Below, in pieces: positions 1 to 13,798 of a stretch of 64,000 bases of DNA; position 1 is the stretch's first letter, and the number at the start of each line of letters is the position of its first letter. The position numbers were made by a program, and so were the translations under genes. Source of the stretch: Opitutia bacterium ISCC 52. GTDB lineage: Bacteria; Verrucomicrobiota; Verrucomicrobiia; Opitutales; UBA2995. The notes beneath the pieces were generated by a model. The model was not told the origin of the DNA, made no database searches, and saw nothing but the letters and a program-made list of their open reading frames with translations. The stretch spans positions 3,615,894 to 3,679,893 of the forward strand of contig CP076040.1 of the NCBI GenBank assembly GCA_014529675.2. The letters run 5' to 3'.

Positions 1-1423
1 GGACATCTATATTACTGTTTTTCAAATGAGGAAAAAATGATTTACCGCGAACGGGGTTAACAGTCTTTCCTCGGTGCTTGCTACCGGGATGACTGACACC
101 TGCGACGTCGAGCAAAGTCGGTAATACATCTTGGACCGTCAGGTATTCTTGGCTGACCCTACCGTGGTCGTTCAATGAAAAAGCATTTACAATAGCGGCG
201 GCACGAGTGCCTCCTTCGTAAAGAGAATTTTTGACATCTCGAAAGGGAGCCATACTCGCTGATGCCCACCCACGACCGTAGACTGTAAACGAGTTGTTCT
301 GACCGAGGCTTTCCAGGGATTGATCGTAGCCTCTGGCGAGCGGAGGAGGGAAAGTCTGCGCTGCACCGTTGTCTGACATGAACAGAACGAAGGTATTCTC
401 TCGCTCACCAATCGTTACAAGATAATCCAGCACTCGACCGATGTGAAAGTCCATGTTCTCTACCATAGCCGCATAGATCTCCATCTTTCGACTAAGTAAG
501 AGTTTCTCACTCTCTAGGAGACTATTCCAGGAATCGGTCCCGGTATCGAAACGGTCCATGTTTACATTATCCGGAAGCACCCCTTGTTTCATAGCCCGCT
601 CAATACGTTGGGCGCGCAAAAAATCATAGCCTTCATCATAGTGATTCTTGTAACGCTCACGCCAATCCAGAGGAACTTGTAATGGGAAATGGGGTGCCGA
701 AAAAGCAAGGTAGGCAAAGAACGGCTGTTCACTGTCCTTGTTGCCATCGATGTATTCGATTATTTTGTCCGTAAATGTTTTCGTTGAAAAATAGTCCTTA
801 GGTAGCTCCTTCACCACATCCCAATTCTCCCGGTAAATAAAGGGTTCTGCACGAGCTATTCCGCCATGGGCACCTCCGTCTGGCGGAATTAGATGCAAGG
901 CTGTTCCCGTCAACTGAGCAAAGGATTGTTCGAACCCACGGCCTGCCGGAATGTGCTCTTGAACCAATGCCCGACCCAGGTCCCACTTGCCCGTCATATA
1001 AGTATGGTAACCCGCATCCTGAAGGATTTCGGGAAGAGCCGCCACCCGCTGACTCAAGTAGCCGGCGTACTCCGGTGTGCCGTAACCAATGGCTTCCTTA
1101 TTCGGTGCTAAGCCATTATCAAATACACGCATAAGGTGCATCGATCCCAGTCCGGCTTCATGGTGATCCATTCCCGACATGAGCATCGCCCGGGTGGGCG
1201 CACACACCGGTGCCGCATGAAAGTTTGCAAGACGTATACCCGAAGCTGCGAGGTCATCCAGATGAGGGGTTTTAATTTCGCCACCGAATGATCCAATATC
1301 GGTGAAGCCCATGTCATCGGCTACGATGAGTAAAAGGTTCGAACGTTGATCGTCTGCGTTGGCATAATTCGCAATGCACCAAACAACTAGAATCAGAAAT
1401 AATTTAACAGTCTGCATATTCAT
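1..1423 (-). CDS. Secreted type I sulfatase, C-terminal end beyond the window edge
   Basis: Formylglycine-dependent sulfatase (alkaline phosphatase superfamily) that would hydrolyse sulfate esters in the periplasm or outside the cell. The start is ATG at 1423 with an in-frame ATG two codons later. A hydrophobic signal segment covers about residues 5-23. The calcium-binding Asp pair follows in VADDMG (about 36-37), and the maturation signature C-A-P-T-R (residues 74-78) carries the cysteine that becomes formylglycine. The frame stays open through KWDLGRA and the SDNGAA motif to the left edge, so the stop codon is missing. Substrate cannot be told; the layout is that of arylsulfatase-like S1 enzymes. 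The gene is about 50 bases downstream of the ring-cleavage operon on the same strand and could be read through from it. Family certain; substrate unknown. Confidence 0.9.
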   Translation of the reverse strand, partial: MNMQTVKLFLILVVWCIANYANADDQRSNLLLIVADDMGFTDIGSFGGEIKTPHLDDLAASGIRLANFHAAPVCAPTRAMLMSGMDHHEAGLGSMHLMRVFDNGLAPNKEAIGYGTPEYAGYLSQRVAALPEILQDAGYHTYMTGKWDLGRALVQEHIPAGRGFEQSFAQLTGTALHLIPPDGGAHGGIARAEPFIYRENWDVVKELPKDYFSTKTFTDKIIEYIDGNKDSEQPFFAYLAFSAPHFPLQVPLDWRERYKNHYDEGYDFLRAQRIERAMKQGVLPDNVNMDRFDTGTDSWNSLLESEKLLLSRKMEIYAAMVENMDFHIGRVLDYLVTIGERENTFVLFMSDNGAAQTFPPPLARGYDQSLESLGQNNSFTVYGRGWASASMAPFRDVKNSLYEGGTRAAAIVNAFSLNDHGRVSQEYLTVQDVLPTLLDVAGVSHPGSKHRGKTVNPVRGKSFFPHLKNSNIDV

Positions 1424-1475
1424 ATAATAATTTAGTAAGCACGAATCGAAAGGAAATGATCCTGGGTGAATCAGC

Positions 1476-2549
1476 TCACGGAATAAATACCTCTCCTTTA
1501 CCAATAATACGAGCCGTGCGAATGGCTCCGGACTCATGAATCTCCAAACCAGACTCTTTCGGGGAGGTCTTCAGAGTCACTGCAAATTGCCCGGATGGAT
1601 GTTCCAGGGAAAAAGAGCTAGAGTCGCTTGCTTCCTCGGCAATGCCTTCTGCAATTGATCCCGGGAGTAAACCAACGGCTGCGACTGAAAATGCACCCAT
1701 AACTCCAATGGCAACATGACATTGATGTGGTATAAATGTGCGTGTGTTCATCAGGCCACCGGACCGTGGAGGTGAAAGCAAACACATCTTGGGCACGGAG
1801 AGTGATGATACATCGCCTAAGTTCATCTTCGGACCCATTTGCAAGCGGATGGACTCGAGGCGTTTCTTAAGGTCTTCATTTGTATCCAGCTCCTCCTTGC
1901 TTTCATTGCCACTTATCGCGAAATCTGATGCTCGAAGCGCTATGACTGGCATGCCGTTATCGATACAGGTCACTTGCACATTATCGACTTCGTCTAACAC
2001 GTTCCCGGTCGGTAGTAACTTTCCGCAGTTGATACCAACGGTCTCGAGGTACTTGCAAATCACAGGAGCACCCGTTCCGGGAACGCCGTCTACTTTCGCA
2101 GAGCCCTCCAATGCAATTTGAGAATGGGGCGTCTGCACAGTGACCTCGCACAAAGCGCCATTATTAACCATGTGAATGACTGCTTTGGTAGTGGGATCGG
2201 TTGGCGCAAGCATTCCGCTCTCGATCGTAAAATGTACCACGCCAGAGAGAATGTTGCCACATCCTTGCGCAGCCGAAAGACGTCCCTCTCCAATGATCAC
2301 CTGTAAAAACAAATAGTCTAGATCAGCGTCCTCGCGCTTCGAAGGACTCACCAACGCGACTTTGGCAGTGAGAGGATCGCCACCGCCCAGACCATCGATC
2401 TGTCGCGTGTCTCCAGGACCAACCCCTTCCATCGCTGCAAGTATGAGCCTATCTCTCTCCTCTACAGAATCTGGGAGATCGGCCGTATTGAAAAAGATGC
2501 CCTTGGAGCTACCGCCCCGAATTTGCATGTATGGAATTCGCGAGGCCAT
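1476..2549 (-). CDS. PrpF/GalD-family isomerase, probable 4-oxalomesaconate tautomerase
   Basis: About 357 residues of the PrpF family (diaminopimelate-epimerase fold), which includes aconitate isomerase and the 4-oxalomesaconate tautomerase GalD. Visible family features are the opening IPYMQIRGGSSKG, the loop DGLGGGDPLTAK with a lysine at about 63, and AAQGCGN with the probable catalytic cysteine at about 97. I chose ATG 2549, one base after the stop of the aldolase gene, over ATG 2561, which would overlap that gene. It is the last gene of the five-gene operon. In gallate catabolism GalD converts the keto to the enol form of 4-oxalomesaconate before hydration. The three neighbouring genes supply the other steps, which is why I favour this over a methylaconitate isomerase; no methylcitrate genes are nearby. 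Confidence 0.85.
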   Translation of the reverse strand: MASRIPYMQIRGGSSKGIFFNTADLPDSVEERDRLILAAMEGVGPGDTRQIDGLGGGDPLTAKVALVSPSKREDADLDYLFLQVIIGEGRLSAAQGCGNILSGVVHFTIESGMLAPTDPTTKAVIHMVNNGALCEVTVQTPHSQIALEGSAKVDGVPGTGAPVICKYLETVGINCGKLLPTGNVLDEVDNVQVTCIDNGMPVIALRASDFAISGNESKEELDTNEDLKKRLESIRLQMGPKMNLGDVSSLSVPKMCLLSPPRSGGLMNTRTFIPHQCHVAIGVMGAFSVAAVGLLPGSIAEGIAEEASDSSSFSLEHPSGQFAVTLKTSPKESGLEIHESGAIRTARIIGKGEVFIP

Positions 2550-2550
2550 T

Positions 2551-3177
2551 CTAGTACCCAAACTTCTTATCCCACTCGTATATCTTCAAAGATGTTTCTC
2601 CGGCCTCAAGACGGGCTCTTACAGCAGCCTCTTTCTTTTCGCGGGCATCAGCCTTTTCAATCGCTTCTTCAACTCTGTCCTGCGGGACAATCACCACGCC
2701 GTCTCGGTCGCCGACCACGATATCTCCGGGCTGAATAACTATGCCTCCGATCGTAATCGTTTGGTTTAAACTACCTTCGGGATCCTTTCCGGTTCCCTTG
2801 ATACACAGTCCACGAAAGAAGATCGGGAAACCCAATTCTTCAATCGTGTCCGAATCTCGGATACACGCATCAATAACCAGGCCAGCCACGCCTTGCTCCA
2901 TGGCCCCTGATGTGAGCAAGTCTCCCCAGTAGCCAGCATCATAGGCGCTCGAGCAGTCCGCCACAATTACGTCTCCTGGCTTCGCATAGGCGTAAGCGCG
3001 GTGCAGATTCACATTCATATAGGCCTTACACTTCACCGTGTAGGCTGGGCCACAAATACGCATCGCAGGATTCAGTGGTTTGATCTGGTAAGGCAGGTCA
3101 CCTATTTGTCCCAAGGCTTCATGGAGGGTGGCGGCTCCAAACTGCGAGAGGGCTTTTAGTTGCTCGTCGGTGATCAT
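2551..3177 (-). CDS. RraA-like 4-hydroxy-2-oxoadipate-type (HMG/CHA) aldolase
   Basis: 208 residues of the RraA/HMG-CHA class II aldolase family. These divalent-metal enzymes cleave 4-carboxy-4-hydroxy-2-oxoadipate to pyruvate and oxaloacetate (GalC/LigK reaction). The central motif WGDLLTSGAMEQGVAG (from about residue 84) and the pair R107-D108 in DACIRDSD are those used for pyruvate and metal binding in the aldolases. The C-terminal stretch GDIVVGDRDGVVIVP is a family hallmark. The start is ATG 3177, four bases after the stop of the PIG-L gene; a longer upstream frame exists but runs inside that gene. The downstream tautomerase starts one base after this stop, so the genes are tightly coupled. 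RraA proper (RNase E inhibitor) is the main alternative, but the operon context and the C-terminal length argue for the aldolase. Confidence 0.85.
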   Translation of the reverse strand: MITDEQLKALSQFGAATLHEALGQIGDLPYQIKPLNPAMRICGPAYTVKCKAYMNVNLHRAYAYAKPGDVIVADCSSAYDAGYWGDLLTSGAMEQGVAGLVIDACIRDSDTIEELGFPIFFRGLCIKGTGKDPEGSLNQTITIGGIVIQPGDIVVGDRDGVVIVPQDRVEEAIEKADAREKKEAAVRARLEAGETSLKIYEWDKKFGY

Positions 3178-3181
3178 CGCT

Positions 3182-3925
3182 TTAATCGAAATGAACGTCA
3201 GGTGCGATGGAGTCCAAAACAACAGGAACTCTACTTTGAAAGGCCTCCGCGAATTCAACTTGTTTCTTCCCGGAAATCCTTCGGGCATGATTACCACGCC
3301 TTCCACCCAGTTCGGTGTAGTAGCTTTGCAAATACGTTTGAGCTCGCATGCATGCCATCGCTGCTTTCTTTTTTTCGAATACCGAGGTGATATCAACGAA
3401 CGTGTCGGGAATGAAGCCGGACAGTTCCGGTTGATGCGGCTCAAAGCTATACCAGAGTGGAGGCGTGATGGCTTTGAAGGCTGCATCGACACCGGCACCC
3501 GCTGAAAGCAAGCGCGCTTTTTCTACGGTTTGATACGTTAGCGGATGATCGGGGTTAAAAGGATCTTTAGCGGAATGCGTCAGGATAACGTTCGGTTCAA
3601 ATTCGAGAATGATGGCCGCCAACTGCTGGACACGTTCGTCGCTCACAACCATAGGGTAGTCGCCCCAATCGAGGCAGCGGAATTCACAACCCAATATTTC
3701 GGAAGCCTCGGCCGACATTTCATGCCTCAGTTGCTTCACATCTTCAACCGAACGATTGGGGTCTTCCTTCCAGAGCACGCCCGACTCACCTCGCTCGCCG
3801 TAGGAAAGAGTCAGGTTTAATACTTCTCCGTCTTGTTCCACTGTTTTGGCAATGGTGCCACCCGCTCGCCAGACAAAATCCGCAGCATGCGCTCCGACTA
3901 CCAATAGCTTTCTTTTGGTTTCCAT
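3182..3925 (-). CDS. PIG-L family metalloenzyme, probable 4-oxalomesaconate hydratase (GalB-like)
   Basis: 247 residues with the PIG-L/LmbE fold. Zinc ligands are visible as the N-terminal AHAAD (H13, D16) and the HP-type histidine in NPDHPLT (about 127); H117 in LTHSAKD is also conserved. Most PIG-L proteins are deacetylases with AHPDDE. The variant AHAADFVWRAGG resembles what I remember of the GalB group of 4-oxalomesaconate hydratases, which use the PIG-L fold for hydration. It lies between the ring-cleaving dioxygenase (21 bases upstream) and the aldolase (4 bases downstream), exactly where a hydratase of this pathway would sit. Established: GalB of Pseudomonas putida has this fold. Inference: the same reaction here. 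A mycothiol-type or N-acetylglucosaminyl deacetylase is the alternative. Confidence 0.8.
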   Translation of the reverse strand: METKRKLLVVGAHAADFVWRAGGTIAKTVEQDGEVLNLTLSYGERGESGVLWKEDPNRSVEDVKQLRHEMSAEASEILGCEFRCLDWGDYPMVVSDERVQQLAAIILEFEPNVILTHSAKDPFNPDHPLTYQTVEKARLLSAGAGVDAAFKAITPPLWYSFEPHQPELSGFIPDTFVDITSVFEKKKAAMACMRAQTYLQSYYTELGGRRGNHARRISGKKQVEFAEAFQSRVPVVLDSIAPDVHFD

Positions 3926-3946
3926 AAAATTGATCAGGCTACCGAT

Positions 3947-4918
3947 TCAGGCATTATCCTCTGTTTCATCCGGCATGGGAGAACCACGGGTGTGAAAACT
4001 CTTAACGGTTTGCAGACCCCAGGCCTGTCCTTTTTTGCGTTCGTCCAGAGACCACACAATCGGCTTGTAATCGGGGTCCAACACAAGACGAGCGGTACTG
4101 TTTGCTATCTCCACCCGGTGGCCTCCCGGTTCATAGAGGTATAGAAAAAAGGTCTGCTGAATAGCATGCTTGTGGGGCCCAGTTTCGATGGTGATTCCGT
4201 TTTCCAAAGCGATATCCGCAGCAATCAATACTTCCTCCCGACTGTTGACTGCGTAAGTCACATGATGAAACCGGCCTCGCGCTCCTTGTAGGTGATCTTC
4301 TGTGACAGCCAAATCGTAAGACTTTGAATTGACGGAAAACCAGGCGCCCAGGACTCGGTCTTCGTCGGATATAATGGTTTCCGTCAATCGACCCCCCAAG
4401 GTGTTGAGCTGAAAGTCTTGAAAGGCACCCACATCGGGAGCCAACAAGTTAATGTGATCGAGACGCCGTACATTCATACCCCGGCCGGGAAATTTGGAAG
4501 CGGTGTTTTTAAGAGCCGAAGCGTCATCCGTGCTGGATCGGTATTTCTCTGATTCAAAATAGATTTCCGTCAACTGACCGCTTGGCATTCTGAACTGGTA
4601 GGTACGGCCCTGGCCCAAATCCCCGTCTGTCCAACCTAGGCCATGCCCACTTGCCTCTATTGCCTTCGCTTTGTGTTCCAGAATTTCGTTACTTCTTAAG
4701 CGCCAGGCGTAGTGTCCGAGATCCGCATGGGTGTGCGCCGTCAACTTCAAGGTATGATGCTCGTAATCGTCGTAGGCACGCAGATAAACAGAATCACCTT
4801 TTTCATCGCTAATGGACATCCCCATCACTTCCGAAAAAAACTGAACGCTTTCTTCCAGTTTTGGTGTCAGCAATTCCACATGCGCCATGTGGGCAATATC
4901 CCATTGGATCGTATCCAT
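3947..4918 (-). CDS. Type I (VOC) extradiol ring-cleavage dioxygenase
   Basis: 323 residues with two vicinal-oxygen-chelate repeats, as in catechol 2,3-dioxygenase. The N-terminal repeat starts at HMAHVELLTPK. The C-terminal repeat holds the iron site: H155 in RRLDHINLL, a His of RFHHVTY (218 or 219) and E270 in GGHRVEI. H251 and a Tyr of FFLYLYEPGG match the second-shell catalytic residues of XylE-type enzymes. The family uses Fe(II) and O2 to open catechols next to the two hydroxyls. It is second in an operon whose other enzymes match gallate degradation (tautomerase, hydratase, aldolase). In known gallate pathways this step uses the unrelated LigAB/GalA type II family, so either the substrate differs or this is a replacement. 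Family call secure; substrate inferred. Confidence 0.88.
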   Translation of the reverse strand: MDTIQWDIAHMAHVELLTPKLEESVQFFSEVMGMSISDEKGDSVYLRAYDDYEHHTLKLTAHTHADLGHYAWRLRSNEILEHKAKAIEASGHGLGWTDGDLGQGRTYQFRMPSGQLTEIYFESEKYRSSTDDASALKNTASKFPGRGMNVRRLDHINLLAPDVGAFQDFQLNTLGGRLTETIISDEDRVLGAWFSVNSKSYDLAVTEDHLQGARGRFHHVTYAVNSREEVLIAADIALENGITIETGPHKHAIQQTFFLYLYEPGGHRVEIANSTARLVLDPDYKPIVWSLDERKKGQAWGLQTVKSFHTRGSPMPDETEDNA

Positions 4919-4974
4919 TATTTTAATTCAGTCTCTTAATTGTTTGATGTTAGATTTAGATAATTCTTAGGGAA

Positions 4975-6387
4975 TCAAATCAAACCAAGCCAAGGTACTA
5001 CCCATAGCATCAATGCGGTAAGAACGATCACCCAAAAGACACTGATCACCAGTCCTGGCCAAAGCATGTCGGTCATTCGATAATAACCTTTTGAATAGGT
5101 GATCAATGCTACCGCATCCAACGGAATCAGAAATGCGCACGAGGCCGTAAATATAACGGGAAGGGCCAAGAGCATGGGCGGTTGGCCAATAGCGATTGAA
5201 AGGGCCACGATGGGCGGAATCATTACCGCATTTACCACAGGCCCTATCGGTACCACAAAATGAATTAGGACGGTAAAAGTACTGATCGCAACGATCAGCC
5301 AGAGAACACTTATCCCTCCAGCTCCATCGAAAATCGCGGATACTACCCAAGTTGCGAGTCCGGTATCGCGGCTAGCCAAGCCGATGGAAGTAACCGCTCC
5401 GATCATTAATAGAATATCCCAGCCAATACCTTTCGACGCCTTATCCCAGGTCGAGACACCAATTCCTGGAAGAAAAAAGACAACCGAGCCGATAAGCGCG
5501 ATCATGGTTACATCGAGCGCCTTAGGATACCAGTTACTTAGTATCCATAAAAAAATTACTATACCAAAAATAGCCATCACCTTTATTTGGGCGGTACTAA
5601 GGGGTTCCTTCGACACCTCTCTTTCTTCCGGATTTTCAGAGATGTTCGAAATTTCAGGTGGAAAGAATTTTAAGAGCACCAACCAGGAGATGGGTATGAG
5701 CAACACAACCATGGGGATCCCAATAGCCATCCACTTTAGAAATGGGACTTCTCCTCCGCCTAAATCAGAAAGCATGACCAACCCCATGATGTTGATCGAA
5801 CTTCCTGCGGGAGTAGCGATTCCACCAATAAACGCGGCGATTGTGATTCCCAGCATCAATACTTTTCCGAAATTGGAGGACCCGGGTTGCAAATTCTCCT
5901 GTTGAAGGATCCCTAAGCCGAGAGCCATCCATAGTGCGCAGGCCGGCACGTCTGACATAACCGACGATACGACCGCGGTTCCAATCATGAAAGCCAGCAG
6001 AATTTTTCGCGTATCCGTACCAGACTTGGATAGGAGCCAATGGGCAAATCGACTGTCCAGCTTGGTTTCCCTCACTACCGCCGCGAACAAAAACATGGCC
6101 AGGACAAAGAAAAATACTGGACTGATAAAGTTGCCAGCAGCCTGACGCAAGGTTGCCGATCCGACCAATGCCTGACCGCCTATGGCCAATATCGATGTGA
6201 CAGGAATCGGTATGGCTTCAGTTACCCACAGAATGAGACAAGCGATCGAGAGGGCCATTAGTCGATGCCCTTCAACACTGAGAGAGTCAGATACCGGCAG
6301 AAAAAAGACTAGCAGGAAGGCTGCAAGAGCAACCATACAAGCTTTAACCGGGCTGGTAGATTTTTGGAGAAACGTAGCATCAGTCAT
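4975..6387 (-). CDS. DASS-family (SLC13-like) sodium-coupled anion permease
   Basis: About 470 residues, very hydrophobic, with roughly eleven membrane segments, of the divalent anion:sodium symporter family that takes up di- and tricarboxylates or sulfate. Typical parts are the early LWVTEAIPIPVTSILAIGG, the first re-entrant loop GGIATPAGSSINIMG and the second loop VVPIGPVVNAVMIPP. The loops differ from the Ser-Asn-Thr motifs of the dicarboxylate carrier VcINDY, which may mean another carboxylate ligand. I chose ATG 6387 because the longer frame (from 6474) adds a leader without family character. It is the first gene of the ring-cleavage operon, 56 bases ahead of the dioxygenase, so an aromatic or polycarboxylic acid import role is likely. 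The divergent promoter region with the 6519 gene spans 6388-6518. Confidence 0.87.
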   Translation of the reverse strand: MTDATFLQKSTSPVKACMVALAAFLLVFFLPVSDSLSVEGHRLMALSIACLILWVTEAIPIPVTSILAIGGQALVGSATLRQAAGNFISPVFFFVLAMFLFAAVVRETKLDSRFAHWLLSKSGTDTRKILLAFMIGTAVVSSVMSDVPACALWMALGLGILQQENLQPGSSNFGKVLMLGITIAAFIGGIATPAGSSINIMGLVMLSDLGGGEVPFLKWMAIGIPMVVLLIPISWLVLLKFFPPEISNISENPEEREVSKEPLSTAQIKVMAIFGIVIFLWILSNWYPKALDVTMIALIGSVVFFLPGIGVSTWDKASKGIGWDILLMIGAVTSIGLASRDTGLATWVVSAIFDGAGGISVLWLIVAISTFTVLIHFVVPIGPVVNAVMIPPIVALSIAIGQPPMLLALPVIFTASCAFLIPLDAVALITYSKGYYRMTDMLWPGLVISVFWVIVLTALMLWVVPWLGLI

Positions 6388-6518
6388 TATAATTTTGTAT
6401 GGAGAGAAGAGCGGAAAGGCTGTGGCAGGCTGATTCGGATACAAGAGATAGTAACAATTGTGACTAGTTGACAAGCACCTTTCAAAATCGTCTTATTAAG
6501 CTTTAGAGCGCAACCACT

Positions 6519-7436
6519 ATGATCCGTACACTCATTTATATCACCATTTACTTTTTCGGCCTTACCTCAATCACAACGGAAGCCTTCGCCCAGCGCAGGG
6601 CTGCCGATCAGCGTCCACGAATCGAACCCACGGTTTCAGATGTGCCCTATGGTGAACACGAGCGACACGTGTTCGACTTTTACAAGGCGGAGTCCTCATC
6701 GCCCACACCTTTGGTTTTATACATCCACGGGGGTGGTTTCGTGAGAGGAAACAAAGACACCATAAATCAAGAAACGCTCAAACAACTCCTGAAGGCTGGC
6801 ATTTCGGTGGCTGCTATCCACTACCGCCTGGCTGGTGAAGTGCCGCTTCCAGCAGCCCATGAAGACGCTCAACGGGCGGTTCAGAGTTTGCGTGCTAATG
6901 CAGACAAGTGGAACTTCGACAAAACTCAGATGGGTGCCTTTGGTGGTTCCTCAGGGGCGCAGTTGTGCATGTGGTTGGCATACCAGGACGATCAGGCTGA
7001 TCCGAAAAACAGCGACCCCATTGCCCGCGAATCGACACGATTAGCCTTTGTGGCCCCGCTGAACGGTCAGATAACTAACGATTTCGATTGGTGGCTGAAT
7101 AATCTACCTGGCTACGATGAGCTCCATCGGGATAAAGCCGAAATTTTCGGAACGAATGATAAAGAAAAAATAGCGCCCATAGCGGAGAAGGTTTCGGTAA
7201 TTAATCATGTAACGGCAGACGACCCACCTACCTACATGAATTATGGAATGGCGCCTGGAGATTCGATTCCTGAAGGTGATCGTGCTACCTCCTGGAAAGT
7301 TCACCATGTTATTTTTGGAGTCACTTTGAAGGAGAAGCTAGACGCCCTGGGGGTCGAGAATCACCTCAACTATCCTAATGCCGATTCAAAGTATAAATCA
7401 GAAGCAGACTTCTTTATAGACAAATTCGGGAAATAG
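6519..7436 (+). CDS. Secreted alpha/beta hydrolase (HSL/BD-FAE-type esterase)
   Basis: 305 residues with a signal peptide (about 1-24, ending EAFA). The oxyanion motif HGGGF is at residues 70-74 and the nucleophile elbow GGSSGA at 142-147, so Ser144 is the expected nucleophile. These are marks of the esterase/lipase families that also hold carbohydrate acetyl- and feruloyl-esterases. The usual C-terminal histidine in a GHGF-like turn is not visible: the protein ends NYPNADSKYKSEADFF. So either the catalytic His sits elsewhere or activity is altered. The gene is transcribed away from the ring-cleavage operon and might release ester-linked aromatic acids for it, but this is only a positional inference. 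A GC-rich hairpin follows the stop codon. Confidence 0.75.
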   Translation: MIRTLIYITIYFFGLTSITTEAFAQRRAADQRPRIEPTVSDVPYGEHERHVFDFYKAESSSPTPLVLYIHGGGFVRGNKDTINQETLKQLLKAGISVAAIHYRLAGEVPLPAAHEDAQRAVQSLRANADKWNFDKTQMGAFGGSSGAQLCMWLAYQDDQADPKNSDPIARESTRLAFVAPLNGQITNDFDWWLNNLPGYDELHRDKAEIFGTNDKEKIAPIAEKVSVINHVTADDPPTYMNYGMAPGDSIPEGDRATSWKVHHVIFGVTLKEKLDALGVENHLNYPNADSKYKSEADFFIDKFGK

Positions 7437-7440
7437 GGCT

Positions 7441-7465
7441 CCAGAGGAATTACCGTATCCTCTGG
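7441..7465 (+). terminator. Stem-loop after the esterase gene
   Basis: A perfect 8-bp stem, CCAGAGGA and TCCTCTGG, with a 9-base loop, starts five bases after the stop codon at 7436. No run of T follows, so it is either a weak terminator or an mRNA 3'-end stabiliser. The gene on the other side (stop at 7567) converges on it. Confidence 0.4.
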
Positions 7466-7566
7466 CCTTAGCGTATGCGTATCCGGTAAATGGATTCATT
7501 GATCCATACACCCACATCTACGCATGCCCTTTCTTCATTTCCCATAAGCCTTGCAGAGTTAGAGCC

Positions 7567-9141
7567 TTATTCCCCACCTGACCACAGGTCTGTTGCAGGA
7601 TCATAATTCGGGTTGGGTGTCATCATCTGCGCATTCACATCTTTACGCCATTGATGCAGTTTCGCGGTGAGCTCTTTGGTTTTGCGGGTTTCAATTTTTG
7701 AAAGATCGTTCTGCTCTCCAATGTCCTTGGTCAGATTAAAAAGCTGAACGGTTCCGTTTTCGAAGTATTCGAGCAGCTTGTAATCACCGTCACGAATGGC
7801 TCCACCCGGGCTTTGCATCCCATGATTGCTGTAGTGTGGAAAGTGCCAATAGATAGGTCCTCGTTCCATTTTTTCGCCACGCACCAAGCGGGTGAAACTC
7901 TTCCCATCAAGGCCGCTTGTGTCATGGTCTACGCCGATCATTTCAAGAATGGTAGGGAAAAAGTCGGTACTTATAACCGGTTCATCGCTGACTGCTCCTG
8001 CCTTTCCCTGATGTGGCCATTTAACAATCATGGGGACTCTGATTCCGCCTTCGTAGAGCCAGCCCTTGGCACCACGGAGTGGCAGATTGGATGTGGAAGC
8101 ACGGGTATCAATTTTGTCGCGAGTGGTTTTGAAATGAGGCGTGCCATTCATCACGGACATGCCGCCATTGTCTGACATGAAAATGACGATGGTGTTATCT
8201 TCGAGGCCATGTTCCTTCAACTTTGCCATGAGTGTCCCCAGGCTTTGATCGACGCTTTCAACCATGCCGGCGAACTCAACATTATCTTGCTTCTGTTTCA
8301 CCTTCACAAGGTCGTTGGCGTAGGAGGTGTAGGTATCCCTGTACTCCGGCTGCTTTATCAATTCATCGAGCTCGGCCCTGCTCGGGTTGGTCGGGCTGTC
8401 CGGGTTGCCTTCGAGTATGAAATCCGGTCCGGGCTGGGGCGGCATGGCGGCCAGTTTCTTCTTATACTTTTCGACCAGGTCGGGCCGACCATGAATGGGG
8501 TCATGCACCGAGAAGTGAGACATATACAAAAGGAAGGGCCTGTCCTTGTTCACATCAATATACTTGGCGGCCAGCTCCGCCAGGCGATCGGTCACGTACT
8601 CTCCTCCATCGAGCCCGGGAATATCCTTCGGGTTATAAAATCCGAGTCGACCAAGGTTGGAGTTCACGGAATAGGGAACATGTAAGTCAAAGCCATGCCC
8701 GGTCGGAGTGGTGTTTCTTCCCAAGTGCCACTTACCAAACAGGGCGGTGGCATAGCCTTCCTTCTTCAAGACTTCGGCCAGGGTGGTCTCATCGGGATCG
8801 AGAGCCATGGCCTTGTCGGGATTCTTCAAGACCTGATAGGGTCGATCACTTCTTCCATTGAGCCAATCCGTCAGGGTCAGGGTTGCAGGGTACTTTCCTG
8901 TAAGGATGCTGGCTCTGGTCGGCGAACACACATGGCAGGCCGCATAGGCATTTGTAAAACGCATGCCTTCTTCCGCGAGTTGATCGATATGAGGCGTGTC
9001 GTAGAAGGGACTGCCGTTACAGGCGACGTCAGACCAACCCAGATCGTCCACCAAAAAGAAAACAACGTTCGGTGACTTGGCTAGTCCTCGCACACTACAG
9101 AGGAGGAAGATTGCGAGAATTGGAAAGAGTAATTGTTTCAT
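7567..9141 (-). CDS. Secreted type I sulfatase
   Basis: 524 residues from ATG 9141; the frame extends 53 codons further upstream but only this start gives a proper signal peptide (about 1-20). After processing comes VDDLGW with the metal-binding Asp pair, then C72-S-P-T-R76, the formylglycine signature. Next are TALFGKWHLG (substrate-side Lys and His) and the SDNGG loop near residue 320. The C-terminus follows the sulfatase norm with YWHFPHY and a short strand domain. It should cleave sulfate esters from a carbohydrate outside the cytoplasm; the substrate is not deducible. It is followed on the same strand by no close gene. The upstream IDS-like sulfatase ends 238 bases before it, so the two may share regulation but are not tightly coupled. 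Confidence 0.93.
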   Translation of the reverse strand: MKQLLFPILAIFLLCSVRGLAKSPNVVFFLVDDLGWSDVACNGSPFYDTPHIDQLAEEGMRFTNAYAACHVCSPTRASILTGKYPATLTLTDWLNGRSDRPYQVLKNPDKAMALDPDETTLAEVLKKEGYATALFGKWHLGRNTTPTGHGFDLHVPYSVNSNLGRLGFYNPKDIPGLDGGEYVTDRLAELAAKYIDVNKDRPFLLYMSHFSVHDPIHGRPDLVEKYKKKLAAMPPQPGPDFILEGNPDSPTNPSRAELDELIKQPEYRDTYTSYANDLVKVKQKQDNVEFAGMVESVDQSLGTLMAKLKEHGLEDNTIVIFMSDNGGMSVMNGTPHFKTTRDKIDTRASTSNLPLRGAKGWLYEGGIRVPMIVKWPHQGKAGAVSDEPVISTDFFPTILEMIGVDHDTSGLDGKSFTRLVRGEKMERGPIYWHFPHYSNHGMQSPGGAIRDGDYKLLEYFENGTVQLFNLTKDIGEQNDLSKIETRKTKELTAKLHQWRKDVNAQMMTPNPNYDPATDLWSGGE

Positions 9142-9379
9142 GGTATATCTCCTATGCGGTTCAGATAGCCGAAGTAGGCTCTCAGTGTCGTTTTGTCCTA
9201 TCTGGTGAATCAGATTTGCAGGGTAATAAGAAAGTACGATTTTATTATGCCTTGGCAAAATTGGAATCGAAGAAAGAAGCAGACTAAGAAAATACACCAA
9301 AATAGGCCCTGGATATAGTAATCGCTGGCCATTTCTTATTAGAACTTGGCCAAGCGGTTATCATGTTAGAAGCCGTTAT

Positions 9380-10786
9380 TCAGTTGGTTTGCGTTGCCAA
9401 CAATTCGTCTAGTTGCGTTCGCAACTGGGTGAGCGTTTGGCCGATGAGCAGCTTGTCTGGCTGGCGGTAAGCCAAGTTCTTCAGCTCATGGGGATCGTTC
9501 TGGGTGTCATAGAGCTCTTCTTCACCTGAAGCATAGCGTATGTAGCGCCAGCGTTCGGTTCGCAAGGCATGATGGTCGACGAAGGTGGTCCAGGCGGGGT
9601 GGTCCCAATCGGCATTCACGTTTTCCAGGAGAGGAAGGAGGGAACGACCTTCGAGTTCGTGCGGTGGATCCAGGTCGGCATAGTCCATCACCGTTGGATA
9701 GATACTGAGAAGCTCCACGGGTTTGTCGCACACGACACCAGAAGGGATTCCTGGGCCGACGATGATGAATGGCACGCGCGTAGCCAGCTCCCACAGAGTG
9801 GCTTTTCCCCAATGACGTTTCTCCCCCAGGTGATAACCATGATCGGAAAAACAAAGAACGTAGGTATTGTCTCCAAGTGGGCTTTCTTCCAGGGCATCCA
9901 ATACCCGGCCCAATTCGTGATCCATGGCCGAGGTGCTCGCCAGGTAGGCTTGCACAATGGATTTCCATTTGCCGTTGTCCTCGACCCAATCGTGCGTCCA
10001 AAGCCCAGGGGCTTCCACATCCTGTGGTCGTCGCTCCCGTTTTCCAAAATAGACCAGATCTTCGGTATCGTTTTCCACTGCTCCGATGGGTAGTTCTATT
10101 CCGTTCAGCGGATGGCGATCGAACCAGACTTGCTCGGCATACATCGGAGTATGAGGCCGGTAAAAACCACAACCGATAAACAGGGGACGGTCATGGCTAC
10201 CTAGCAGGGTGTCGATGGTATGTTGGGCAATCTCCGCATCGTGACTGGCAGCATCCTTTACCGGAGGAACGCCCCAATCGGTTAACGTCCAGCCTGCATC
10301 ATAGTTCACCTTAGGAGATTGCAAGGGCCCGTAAAAGAAAGCTTCCGATTGCTCCCACTCGTCGTCCGAGCTTCTTACCTGGTGATAAAGCTTTCCGTAC
10401 CCATGGCTCGAATACCCGTTCTGCAGCATAGTTTGTGAAAGGGTGACAATGTCCTGCGTCGATTCCTGCTCGCGAAACCAGCCCATCGGATTGGAGTGGA
10501 TTCCGGTCGTGGTGGGTCTCAGCCCTGTCCAGATCGCCGTGCGTGAAGGATTGCAAACCGGGGACACGCAATGCGCGTTGGTGAACAAAACGCCCTGCTT
10601 GGCCAAGCGATCTAAATTAGGAGTGGAGGCGTTCGGATGTCCATCCAGACTTCCCACGTAGTCATTCAAATCATCGATGGCGATGATCAGAAAATTTGGC
10701 CTTTCCTCAGCCACAAGGCCGAGCATTGAGATGAAGGCCAGAGCAACAAAAAGAGGGAATTGTCGGAATAGGTGGAACATGAACAT
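9380..10786 (-). CDS. Iduronate-2-sulfatase-like secreted sulfatase
   Basis: 468 residues with a signal peptide up to about residue 26. The metal site is AIDDLNDYVG, and the maturation signature is C78-N-P-S-R82 within SPVCNPSRTAIWTG. The DDLND opening, the CNPSR signature and the later SDHGYHLGEKRHWGKATLWE block are characteristic of the iduronate-2-sulfatase group (S1_7 type), which removes 2-O-sulfate from uronic or related sugars. The stop lies well before the next gene on this strand. The serine hydrolase gene upstream ends only 14 bases before this start, so they are probably co-transcribed. GC content is higher here than in the 30-38 kb region (38 of 60 bases G or C in the block at 9541). 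Confidence 0.92.
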   Translation of the reverse strand: MFMFHLFRQFPLFVALAFISMLGLVAEERPNFLIIAIDDLNDYVGSLDGHPNASTPNLDRLAKQGVLFTNAHCVSPVCNPSRTAIWTGLRPTTTGIHSNPMGWFREQESTQDIVTLSQTMLQNGYSSHGYGKLYHQVRSSDDEWEQSEAFFYGPLQSPKVNYDAGWTLTDWGVPPVKDAASHDAEIAQHTIDTLLGSHDRPLFIGCGFYRPHTPMYAEQVWFDRHPLNGIELPIGAVENDTEDLVYFGKRERRPQDVEAPGLWTHDWVEDNGKWKSIVQAYLASTSAMDHELGRVLDALEESPLGDNTYVLCFSDHGYHLGEKRHWGKATLWELATRVPFIIVGPGIPSGVVCDKPVELLSIYPTVMDYADLDPPHELEGRSLLPLLENVNADWDHPAWTTFVDHHALRTERWRYIRYASGEEELYDTQNDPHELKNLAYRQPDKLLIGQTLTQLRTQLDELLATQTN

Positions 10787-10800
10787 GGGTCGTAATGGTG

Positions 10801-12051
10801 TTATTCAATAATGGCCTGATAAATGGCTTTTGCAAAGTCGCTCCGCATCGAGCCACGCGGTTGTTGCAACATGATTACTGCGACCAGTTCGTTTTCAGGA
10901 TCAGTCCATGACATCGTGCCAGCAGCACCGCCCCATCCAGAGGCACCTTTCCCTCGATGGTTCATTGCAGTATCTGGATCCAGTGTGACGGCAACCGTGT
11001 ATCCGAAACCCATCCCGGCTTGTCCCTTCTTGTTACTGGTTGCATAGAGGTCGTTCACCTGGTTGCTCCCCATCATCTTCACGCTGGCTGGGCTGAGTAG
11101 GCGGTGATCAAAAAGTTCTCCACCGTTGAGCAGCATCTGTTCGAAGTGGAGATAGTCTTCCGTCGAACTGAAAACCCCCCACCCCTCTTTCTTCTTTGAG
11201 AGATCAACACCTTTGATCACGACCCGTTTTGATTGCTTGTCGCTCGGTACTCGGAAATACGAATGATTCATCTCCAGTGGATCAAAGATCCGTTTCTGAA
11301 CGTACTCCTCAAATGGGGTACCTGAAGCGATTTCGATGATGCGTGACATCACATGGAGCCCCGCTCCAGCACTGTAGCTCCACTGCGTGCCCGGTTGAAA
11401 ATCCAAGGGCGTCTTTGCCAATCTAAGAGTATAGCTTGCGCGTGTATCGTCGTCTTTTCGTCGAGGCACCGGACCGACTTTCGCCCCTAGGCCGCCGCTA
11501 ACAAGTCCGGACGTGTGAGTGAGCAAATGATGAATCGTCATAGGTGTTTCAACCGGTACAAGACGGTGCTCTGGGATCTTTCTCTTACCTTGGGTTTTGA
11601 ATTTAGACATGCTGGCTGTTGGATCTGCCAGAACAGCCACTTTCATGTTGGCAAATTCGGGGATGTATTTCGAAACCGGATCACTCGGACTTATTAGCCC
11701 TTTTTCAATCAGCATCATTGCGGCAACACCAACCACAGGTTTGGCCGAAGAGGCCATGATGAAAATAGCGTCGCGTTCCATCTCGCGCCCTTTTAAGACA
11801 TCCATTTCTCCATGGGTTGAGAAATGAACTACCTTGCCGCGTCGTGCCACAGCCGTGATCGCTCCTTGAATAGTCCCCGCCTCAATGTGCCCCTGCATAA
11901 CTTCGTCGATGCGTTTTAAGCCCCCGGTTGACACCCCGACCGACTCAGCCTTGGCCATGGGCATTTTCGTCGGCGTATGCATGGGTTGGGCCGAAGAGGA
12001 GCCGAAGGCGCCAAAGGCCAGCGCAAGAACTAAGAGTATAAAACGTTTCAT
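10801..12051 (-). CDS. Secreted beta-lactamase-fold serine hydrolase (class C/EstB-like)
   Basis: 416 residues with a signal peptide (1 to about 21). The serine beta-lactamase/D-alanyl-D-alanine carboxypeptidase fold is shown by the S-x-x-K motif at 101-104 (MASSAKPVV), the YSAG element in QWSYSAGAGLHV that replaces the usual Tyr-x-Asn, and a C-terminal HRGKGASGWGG in place of the Lys-Thr-Gly box. Members act as esterases, peptidases or carbohydrate de-esterifying enzymes; true beta-lactamase activity is unlikely. It lies 14 bases upstream of the IDS-like sulfatase on the same strand, which suggests a role with sulfated sugar use, perhaps removing ester groups. The 316 bases upstream hold nothing I can name. 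Confidence 0.87.
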   Translation of the reverse strand: MKRFILLVLALAFGAFGSSSAQPMHTPTKMPMAKAESVGVSTGGLKRIDEVMQGHIEAGTIQGAITAVARRGKVVHFSTHGEMDVLKGREMERDAIFIMASSAKPVVGVAAMMLIEKGLISPSDPVSKYIPEFANMKVAVLADPTASMSKFKTQGKRKIPEHRLVPVETPMTIHHLLTHTSGLVSGGLGAKVGPVPRRKDDDTRASYTLRLAKTPLDFQPGTQWSYSAGAGLHVMSRIIEIASGTPFEEYVQKRIFDPLEMNHSYFRVPSDKQSKRVVIKGVDLSKKKEGWGVFSSTEDYLHFEQMLLNGGELFDHRLLSPASVKMMGSNQVNDLYATSNKKGQAGMGFGYTVAVTLDPDTAMNHRGKGASGWGGAAGTMSWTDPENELVAVIMLQQPRGSMRSDFAKAIYQAIIE

Positions 12052-12367
12052 GATCGAGAAAAGTTGGGCAGTGTATCAAATGATCGATCTTAGGGTCTAA
12101 AGTAGTGAGCAAGGTAATCCAACTCTGAATTCTTACAGGGCCGAAATACTGGATGCTGGGACCTGGATGTTCGGGGCTGGTTATTAGATACGGGCAACTC
12201 AATTGATATACCGAACATAGCGGAACCAAAATAACATTTTCGCGCACTCAACACTGCATCCAAAGTGCTCCTGTAGTCCAGGTCAGGGTCAAACTGCACT
12301 TCGCAGGCCAGACTCACCATTACTACAATTCTTTGCCAGCTTCTGCGAGAAGGTTTATCCGATTCAG

Positions 12368-13798
12368 CTAAGGCTGCCCTCGCAAGCGCCCGAGATACTC
12401 ATACTGATCAAATGCTTCTCCGCCGCCAATGACTCGAGGATCCTCGTATTTCTCTAGCTCGGCAAATAGTTTTTCTTTCAAGCGATGTAACGTACCCGCG
12501 TATTCGGTACGGCCTGCGACATTATGCACCTGATAAGGATCTAGCCGAAGGTCGTATAGCTCGTCAGTCGGTCGAAGCCCAAAGGATAGCTGCCAATAGA
12601 TCTGCATATCCGGCTCGTCCTTATGCTCAATAATATAACTCTTCGTGGGACTCTCGTTAACTTCCGAATAAGTGGGGCCATAAACACTTCCATTGGGATG
12701 ACCGGATGGCCATCTCTCGGGCTTGAAGTTGTTAATATATAAAAAATGGTCGGTGCGAATGGCGCGCATGGGAGTACCTCCCCGATGGTCCAATTGAGCC
12801 AGGGTATGACGTTCCTTCCCGGCCAAGACGTATTCACGATTCGATGACACACGCCCTTCTTTTTCGGAGCGCAAAACAGGCAGCAGAGAACGACCGGTGG
12901 TGCCAGGCAGGTAGTCGACTCCGGTTGCTTCCAGAAAAGTGGGAGCAAGATCCGTGGTGCTCACAAAGTCAGTTACGACTCGGTTCTGTGGCACTTGGGT
13001 ATGCCACTTAATGGCCAGGGGAACGCGTGCACCGTGATCGTAGAGGCTGGCTTTTCCACGAGGAAACGGAAATCCATGGTCCCCCGTCATGACAAAAATG
13101 GTATTATCGGAAAGTCCCTGCGCCTCCAGGAGAGCCAGCGCTTCACCCACCTGACGGTCGAAGCGTTCCACCTCCCAGTAATAGTCAAGAATGTCTCTGC
13201 GAACGGCATCTACATCTGGAAAGAAGGGAGGCACATCAACATCCTCCGGCTTCATTCCTGCTCGGATTCCTGAATCCAAAATATAGGGTCTATGAGGATC
13301 CGAAGCTCCAAACCAGAAACAAAAGGGTTGATCTTTCGGACGTTCCTTCAGGAACGCCTCCAGGCTCCTAAACTTTTTACCTGCTACTTCTTTCCCACCA
13401 TCCGAACCCGGGCCGAATCCTTTGCGATAATGCCCCACAAAATAGCCGGCCTCCTTCAACACCTGCACATAAGTCGGAAATCCTTCCGGATAATTACCAA
13501 ACAAGGCGCTGCCTGATTTAAGTCTCCAGAAATGCTGTCCAGTAAGGATCGCATTCCGTGATGCGGTACAGGTTGGCGTGGAAACATAGGCGTTGGTAAA
13601 CAGCACACCATTGGCCGCAATGCTGTCGAAAGCAGGTGTCTTGATCACCGCATCTCCGTAAGCACTTGCATGAGGCCAACCCCAATCATCGGCAATGGCA
13701 AAAAAGATATTGGGGCGATCGCTTGTGTGATGATCGGCGAAGAGAAGTGCACCGACATTCACAGTCAGAAGAAAACAAAAGATGACGAATCGTTTCAT
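12368..13798 (-). CDS. Heparan N-sulfatase-like secreted sulfatase
   Basis: 476 residues with a signal peptide (about 1-21). The metal motif is IADDWGWPHASAYGD and the maturation signature C77-T-A-S-R81. DDWGWPHA, CTASRNAILTGQ and the later TGDHGFPFPRGKASLYDHG are marks of the sulfamidase/SGSH-like group (S1_8 type), which acts on N- or O-sulfated glucosamine-like sugars in known members. The C-terminus carries YDLRLDPYQVHNVAG. The next gene downstream on this strand, the serine hydrolase, is 316 bases away, so this is likely its own transcription unit. Family assignment is firm; the natural substrate in this organism could be quite different from heparan. Confidence 0.92.
   Translation of the reverse strand: MKRFVIFCFLLTVNVGALLFADHHTSDRPNIFFAIADDWGWPHASAYGDAVIKTPAFDSIAANGVLFTNAYVSTPTCTASRNAILTGQHFWRLKSGSALFGNYPEGFPTYVQVLKEAGYFVGHYRKGFGPGSDGGKEVAGKKFRSLEAFLKERPKDQPFCFWFGASDPHRPYILDSGIRAGMKPEDVDVPPFFPDVDAVRRDILDYYWEVERFDRQVGEALALLEAQGLSDNTIFVMTGDHGFPFPRGKASLYDHGARVPLAIKWHTQVPQNRVVTDFVSTTDLAPTFLEATGVDYLPGTTGRSLLPVLRSEKEGRVSSNREYVLAGKERHTLAQLDHRGGTPMRAIRTDHFLYINNFKPERWPSGHPNGSVYGPTYSEVNESPTKSYIIEHKDEPDMQIYWQLSFGLRPTDELYDLRLDPYQVHNVAGRTEYAGTLHRLKEKLFAELEKYEDPRVIGGGEAFDQYEYLGRLRGQP

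Follow-up and report, generated by a model that had tools for sequence, protein, structure and literature searches.

A candidate gallate catabolic unit with a VOC-fold ring-cleavage dioxygenase and an arylsulfatase in Opitutia bacterium ISCC 52

The closest described systems to the locus considered here are the galABCD genes of Pseudomonas putida KT2440 and the DesB plus LigU/LigJ/LigK set of Sphingobium SYK-6, in which the ring is opened by a type II enzyme (GalA or DesB); gallate dioxygenases have been placed in the LigB superfamily (PMC4250580; DesB, PMC3962378). The product, 4-oxalomesaconate, is then processed jointly by GalD, GalB and GalC (the pathway of Nogales 2011, as summarised in PMC10512348). 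The substrates named for VOC-type (type I) enzymes in the AromaDeg text do not include gallate. Here we describe six genes at the left end of a 64,000-nt stretch of the Opitutia bacterium ISCC 52 genome (contig CP076040.1, positions 3,615,894 to 3,679,893; hereafter, the window). We consider it likely that they were acquired by horizontal transfer and serve the catabolism of gallate, a building block of plant tannins, probably with sulfated gallate among the substrates. The unit shares with both described systems the families of the last three enzymes, the lack of any redox step within the unit, and a predicted end in pyruvate and oxaloacetate. It differs from them in its ring-cleavage enzyme, a VOC-fold protein in place of a type II LigB-superfamily one, and in the addition of a DASS permease and an arylsulfatase. 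In order of transcription, the genes are as follows (G355 is a second carrier genome, introduced below):

4975 to 6387, minus strand: DASS/SLC13-type anion permease, first gene of the unit (470 aa; PF00939, TIGR00785, G355 copy)
3947 to 4918, minus strand: two-domain VOC (type I) extradiol-type ring-cleavage dioxygenase (323 aa; TIGR03211, structural model, predicted ligands)
3182 to 3925, minus strand: PIG-L/GalB-type 4-oxalomesaconate hydratase (247 aa; match to 5cgz, shared motifs)
2551 to 3177, minus strand: RraA/GalC-type 4-carboxy-4-hydroxy-2-oxoadipate (CHA) aldolase (208 aa; PRK09262, 3noj)
1476 to 2549, minus strand: PrpF/GalD-type 4-oxalomesaconate tautomerase (357 aa; NF033377, GalD structures)
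1 to 1423, running off the left end of the window, minus strand: PAS-type arylsulfatase with a signal-like N-terminus, sixth gene (549 aa in all)

An original prediction, made from the sequence alone, had recognized the first five of these genes, with gaps of 56, 21, 4 and 1 nt from the permease to the isomerase (GalD), and open reading frames (ORFs) and family profiles confirm both the families and the spacing; the aldolase ATG is internal to a longer ORF, and the isomerase likewise starts at an ATG (MASRIP). The boundary drawn at five genes did not hold up. The arylsulfatase gene, co-oriented with the other five, starts at 1423, which is 52 nt past the isomerase gene, has its stop codon about 226 nt left of the window, and is conserved together with them in G355, a carrier from another family of the same order. 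BLASTN of the two regions yields a single block of 81.7% identity, from window position -225 to 6387, whose ends are the sulfatase stop codon and the DASS start; nothing is conserved beyond it. The permease gene occupies the same position in G355, and amino acid identities across the unit are 90% (DASS), 93.5% (dioxygenase), 92% (GalB), 87% (GalC), 82% (GalD) and 84% (sulfatase), with dN/dS values of 0.04-0.11 that indicate strong purifying selection. The conserved unit is six genes, arylsulfatase included. This selection, together with the recurrence of the same gene set in several phyla (see below), argues that the arrangement is not due to chance. A BD-FAE esterase gene at 6519-7436 was considered as a further member and rejected because conservation with G355 stops at 6387.

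The tautomerase, hydratase and CHA aldolase of the gallate pathway are present together in the unit. The tautomerase passes the curated cut-off of the GalD model NF033377 (452 bits versus 440) and matches the GalD structures 6p3j, 6p3h and 6p3k with E values of 1e-96 to 3e-95, retaining the lysine that is methionine in 6p3h. The aldolase likewise passes PRK09262 (191.3 bits versus 179), finds its best solved structure in 3noj (E 4e-39), and retains the RD motif. Among the profile-search output, no NCBIfam model is specific to GalB; its assignment comes from the PIG-L Pfam family and from its best solved structure, the GalB 5cgz (E 4e-56, the next match being at 3e-11), with which it has the AHxAD, GERGES, DHPL and FEPHQPE motifs in common. 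The window protein thus matches the solved hydratase far better than it does deacetylases, and the earlier identification of these three proteins as GalB-, GalC- and GalD-like is upheld.

The oxygenase gene encodes what is, as had also been proposed and judging from its structural model, a type I (VOC) extradiol-fold protein; its predicted iron ligands are intact. Profiles find Glyoxalase/VOC domains in it, and the AlphaFold2 model (mean pLDDT 78.2, pTM 0.83) superimposes on solved type I enzymes, with Z scores of 39.5 for 3lm4 (310 residues), 38.7 for AphC, 36.3 for XylE (1mpy) and 32.9 for HPCD. It has in common with XylE, AphC (7q2a) and HPCD the fold, two VOC modules and a probable 2-His-1-Glu site: alignment with HPCD, using the ligand numbering that we assume for that enzyme, places the ligands at H155, H219 and E270, which are invariant in 27 aligned sequences, and the second-shell residues N157, H251 and Y260 are also retained. 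In contrast to those enzymes, whose genes sit with semialdehyde pathways, the window gene sits with GalBCD. Its protein also lacks the second-sphere acid-base histidine of type I dioxygenases: the position of HPCD His200, which is His in HPCD and in 3lm4/7q2a, is Tyr201 here, with Tyr likewise in 9wgj and throughout the 27 aligned sequences. Similarly, Arg243 of HPCD, which we take to be the carboxylate-binding position, is replaced by Thr246. HPCD variants at the His200 position alter cleavage behaviour. With a vicinal triol, the product is identical whether cleavage is extradiol, beside one pair of oxygens, or intradiol, within the adjacent pair, so that on gallate the enzyme could relax its extradiol control without penalty. 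We considered Tyr201 as a signature of gallate cleavage and rejected it, since 9wgj, deposited as a catechol dioxygenase, carries Tyr as well and the residue is therefore not specific to GalBCD-linked members; 9wgj is not among the fold matches of the model.

The remainder of the genome narrows the choice of substrate, by way of single family or protein searches. No LigB-type (type II, PF02900) dioxygenase was matched anywhere in the genome, although controls were, which speaks against a type II ring-cleavage enzyme elsewhere; strictly defined, the unit is thus no GalABCD operon, but it can function as an equivalent. (A genome search for PF07746 also gave no match, but no control matched either, and we draw no conclusion on absence from it.) The same genome carries an ortho-cleavage cluster, pobA-pcaHGFBDC-pcaIJ (locus L118, G000:C1:1694000-1710000, at 483-8088), in which PobA, PcaH, PcaG, PcaF, PcaD, PcaC and PcaIJ score above curated cut-offs and PcaB just below. 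As this route takes 4-hydroxybenzoate and protocatechuate, meta-cleavage of protocatechuate is not needed and a triol such as gallate is favoured; on these grounds, protocatechuate was set aside as the main substrate. As originally noted, the unit contains neither a 4-carboxy-2-hydroxymuconate-6-semialdehyde (CHMS) dehydrogenase nor a 2-pyrone-4,6-dicarboxylate (PDC) lactonase, and the same holds for the unit in G355; a vicinal triol needs neither, so their absence fits such a substrate. The proposal of a gallate-type pathway therefore stands in its enzymes, with GalBCD, the VOC fold, the lack of a type II enzyme and an ortho route covering protocatechuate in its favour, whereas we infer the product of ring cleavage and its substrate, for which a gallate-like triol would be the best candidate on sequence grounds.

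The sixth gene suggests that this triol may arrive in sulfated form. The best solved structure for the arylsulfatase is Pseudomonas aeruginosa PAS (1hdh; E 3e-133 over 521 residues), a match far above the polysaccharide sulfatases listed. The two proteins match over their full length and have the sulfatase signature in common (CAPTR in the window protein, the CxPxR formylglycine motif); the window enzyme differs in its hydrophobic, signal-like N-terminal segment and in its association with genes for the catabolism of an aromatic compound. The coastal halophyte Frankenia laevis is reported to contain gallic acid sulfate as well as 3-O-methylgallic acid 5-O-sulfate (PMC9148066), which offers indirect support for a natural source of the substrates of an arylsulfatase-gallate module.

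At the other end of the unit, the permease scores 157 bits against PF00939 (cut-off 27) and 197.3 against TIGR00785, just under the cut-off of 198.6. In alignment with VcINDY, both substrate-binding SNT motifs are replaced, SNT standing opposite SDV and a PIGP region; such a loss would fit an unusual anion without naming it. The original prediction called a DASS importer uncommon for such a pathway, and the comparison bears this out: the clusters of relatives have aromatic-acid MFS, TRAP or ABC transport instead (Pantoea an annotated aromatic acid/H+ symporter, and many Bacteroidota loci such an MFS gene, one of them profile-checked). In a same-genus genome without the dioxygenase (L101/L113, G003:C63), an 86% identical DASS gene adjoins a different sulfatase.

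Taken together, these assignments would give the following route. The exported arylsulfatase would strip the aryl sulfate, the DASS-type permease would take in the aromatic acid, and the VOC dioxygenase would open the vicinal triol to give 4-oxalomesaconate; GalD would tautomerise this compound, GalB would hydrate it to 4-carboxy-4-hydroxy-2-oxoadipate, and GalC would split the latter into pyruvate and oxaloacetate. The cargo of the permease, the substrate of the sulfatase and its export are points that we infer.

The combination of a VOC dioxygenase with GalB, GalC and GalD had been thought particular to this locus, and it turns out to be widespread, recurring in Bacteroidota, Alphaproteobacteria, Gammaproteobacteria and Acidobacteriota. 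After a genome scan, we surveyed the neighbourhoods of the closest dioxygenases, which are 66-76% identical to the window protein and lie in 21 Bacteroidota loci. GalB is near the VOC gene in 21/21, GalC in 18/21 and GalD in 16/21, with all three present in 16; four of the five loci lacking GalD are at contig ends, and in the remaining one, L018, the 9 kb that were read contain no GalD. The same four-enzyme set (VOC, PIG-L, aldolase and tautomerase) is found on plasmids of Agrobacterium vitis, A. tumefaciens, Rhizobium, Thioclava and Pantoea; the A. tumefaciens cluster adjoins a PF07519 tannase, and carboxylesterases lie beside some relatives' clusters, neighbours that give the gallate reading some indirect support. 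Across these plasmid and Bacteroidota clusters, the dioxygenase is 53-76% identical to that of the window, and the genes are annotated only as separate genes; they differ from the window unit in usually adding a DUF1932 oxidoreductase, a LysR or AraC regulator, and ABC/TRAP/MFS transport. LigB matches occur in 15/26 of the VOC+GalBCD genomes, all in frames of 279-334 aa that fall short of a fused gallate dioxygenase (about 420 aa). As for the hope of an undescribed pathway variant, we found no description of a VOC gallate dioxygenase or of VOC+GalBCD clusters in the literature, within a partial coverage that leaves out most subscription journals and permits no claim of priority; at the same time, the arrangement is common in other bacteria.

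In a quick likelihood tree (support by SH-aLRT, without bootstrap), the window dioxygenase falls within a clade of Bacteroidota sequences (SH-aLRT 100, 22 rows), beside that of a Saprospiraceae metagenome-assembled genome. The sequence comparisons gave no sign of the dioxygenase belonging to a non-aromatic VOC family, or of the GalB/C/D-like proteins belonging apart from GalB, GalC and GalD, either of which would have spoken against the original prediction. The dioxygenase was found in none of 131 close relatives, and G355 is the one other carrier among 388 genomes drawn from the phylum and 373 from the order (the two draws overlap). Given its position inside the Bacteroidota clade, horizontal acquisition of the unit, probably from Bacteroidota, is the simplest reading of these sequences.

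Several observations weigh against a gallate unit of this kind. The link of the sulfatase to the other five genes is known from two genomes, no homologue of this arylsulfatase being present at the relatives' VOC+GalBCD loci examined. No PF07519 tannase scores above cut-off in the genome, with one fragment matching below it. Most Bacteroidota operons carry the additional DUF1932 oxidoreductase, which the gallate route does not need. The nearest curated model of the dioxygenase is that of catechol 2,3-dioxygenase (TIGR03211), at 303.9 bits, below the cut-off of 320.2. Finally, the neighbours of the related enzymes in Thermus and Roseomonas include PobA or ring-hydroxylating oxygenases, along with lactonase-like proteins, so that some members of the dioxygenase family may cleave protocatechuate.

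These last neighbourhoods are the substance of one alternative, in which the VOC enzyme performs 4,5-cleavage of protocatechuate to a semialdehyde, an unlinked dehydrogenase and lactonase convert this to 4-oxalomesaconate, and GalD, GalB and GalC follow. The Thermus oshimai relative (59% identical) has PobA, a ring-hydroxylating oxygenase, DUF6282, an oxidoreductase, PIG-L and an aldolase for company, and close to the Roseomonas dioxygenase copy lies an amidohydrolase with a relationship to 4-sulfomuconolactone hydrolase; however, PobA in the window genome adjoins protocatechuate 3,4-dioxygenase and other ortho-pathway genes, and the six-gene unit lacks the dehydrogenase and lactonase both here and in G355, which makes this alternative improbable. 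We regard as similarly unlikely a ring-cleavage substrate that is a methylated or otherwise substituted triol (3-O-methylgallate, a pyrogallol-type compound or a sulfated intermediate) whose products enter the same three enzymes: the arylsulfatase implies a substituted phenol as the starting point, and the methylated sulfate also occurs in the halophyte (PMC9148066), but the unit contains no O-demethylase gene. Pyrogallol, moreover, would by general pathway knowledge give 2-hydroxymuconate, without the carboxyl group of 4-oxalomesaconate. That an ordinary catechol 2,3-dioxygenase, as the best curated model might suggest, stands beside GalBCD-like enzymes by coincidence and serves a different pathway is very hard to credit, given the score under that model's cut-off, the lack among the six genes of a muconic-semialdehyde hydrolase or dehydrogenase, oxalocrotonate tautomerase or decarboxylase, and the presence of GalB near the dioxygenase in all 21 Bacteroidota relatives and of the same set in distant lineages.

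A catabolic unit for gallate, probably including sulfated gallate, is thus the reading that we retain. A bolder version of it, which we put forward only tentatively and hold to be somewhat doubtful, is that of a self-contained, horizontally spread six-gene module for sulfated gallate, with a DASS permease without the dicarboxylate motifs and a VOC enzyme with Tyr for His that founds a second, unrelated class of gallate dioxygenase across several phyla.

Some further features of these loci may be recorded. The esterase gene at 6519-7436 (plus strand) encodes a BD-FAE/feruloyl-esterase-like hydrolase with a signal-like N-terminus and is divergent from the unit; esterases flank relatives' clusters too. 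Beyond it, at 7567-13798, lies a sulfatase-rich region with three further sulfatases and, at 10801-12051, what looks by eye like a serine beta-lactamase-like protein. In G355, an IS3-like transposase fragment (L112, 16775-17098, by eye) lies about 6 kb past the DASS end of the conserved block. The ortho-cleavage cluster has a MarR-like gene beside it, and its pcaI and pcaJ are fused in one ORF; another intradiol dioxygenase (L120, 1495-2349; catechol/hydroxyquinol-like, below all cut-offs) is flanked by TRAP permease-like and HMGL-like genes. Neither the window unit nor Jiulongibacter (L028) has the DUF1932/NAD-binding oxidoreductase that accompanies VOC+GalB/C/D in most relatives (among them L013 1399-2283 and L021 11357-12121); a search for such a partner elsewhere in the window genome gave only a weak 28% match. 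On the Thermus oshimai plasmid (L010, 7956-12622), the VOC dioxygenase, DUF6282, PIG-L, aldolase and oxidoreductase genes near PobA and the ring-hydroxylating oxygenase may amount to a meta pathway for protocatechuate, in which DUF6282 could be a lactonase so far unrecognised.

If the gallate reading is true, breakdown of gallate and tannins has been overlooked in Bacteroidota, rhizobia, agrobacteria and the window lineage, since annotation pipelines label the key enzyme 'catechol 2,3-dioxygenase' or 'VOC family protein' and the known gallate dioxygenase is GalA. Two unrelated folds would then open the ring in the same way, each feeding a common set of downstream enzymes, and the link to an arylsulfatase suggests a route by which the carbon and sulfur of sulfated phenolics from coastal plants may be used.

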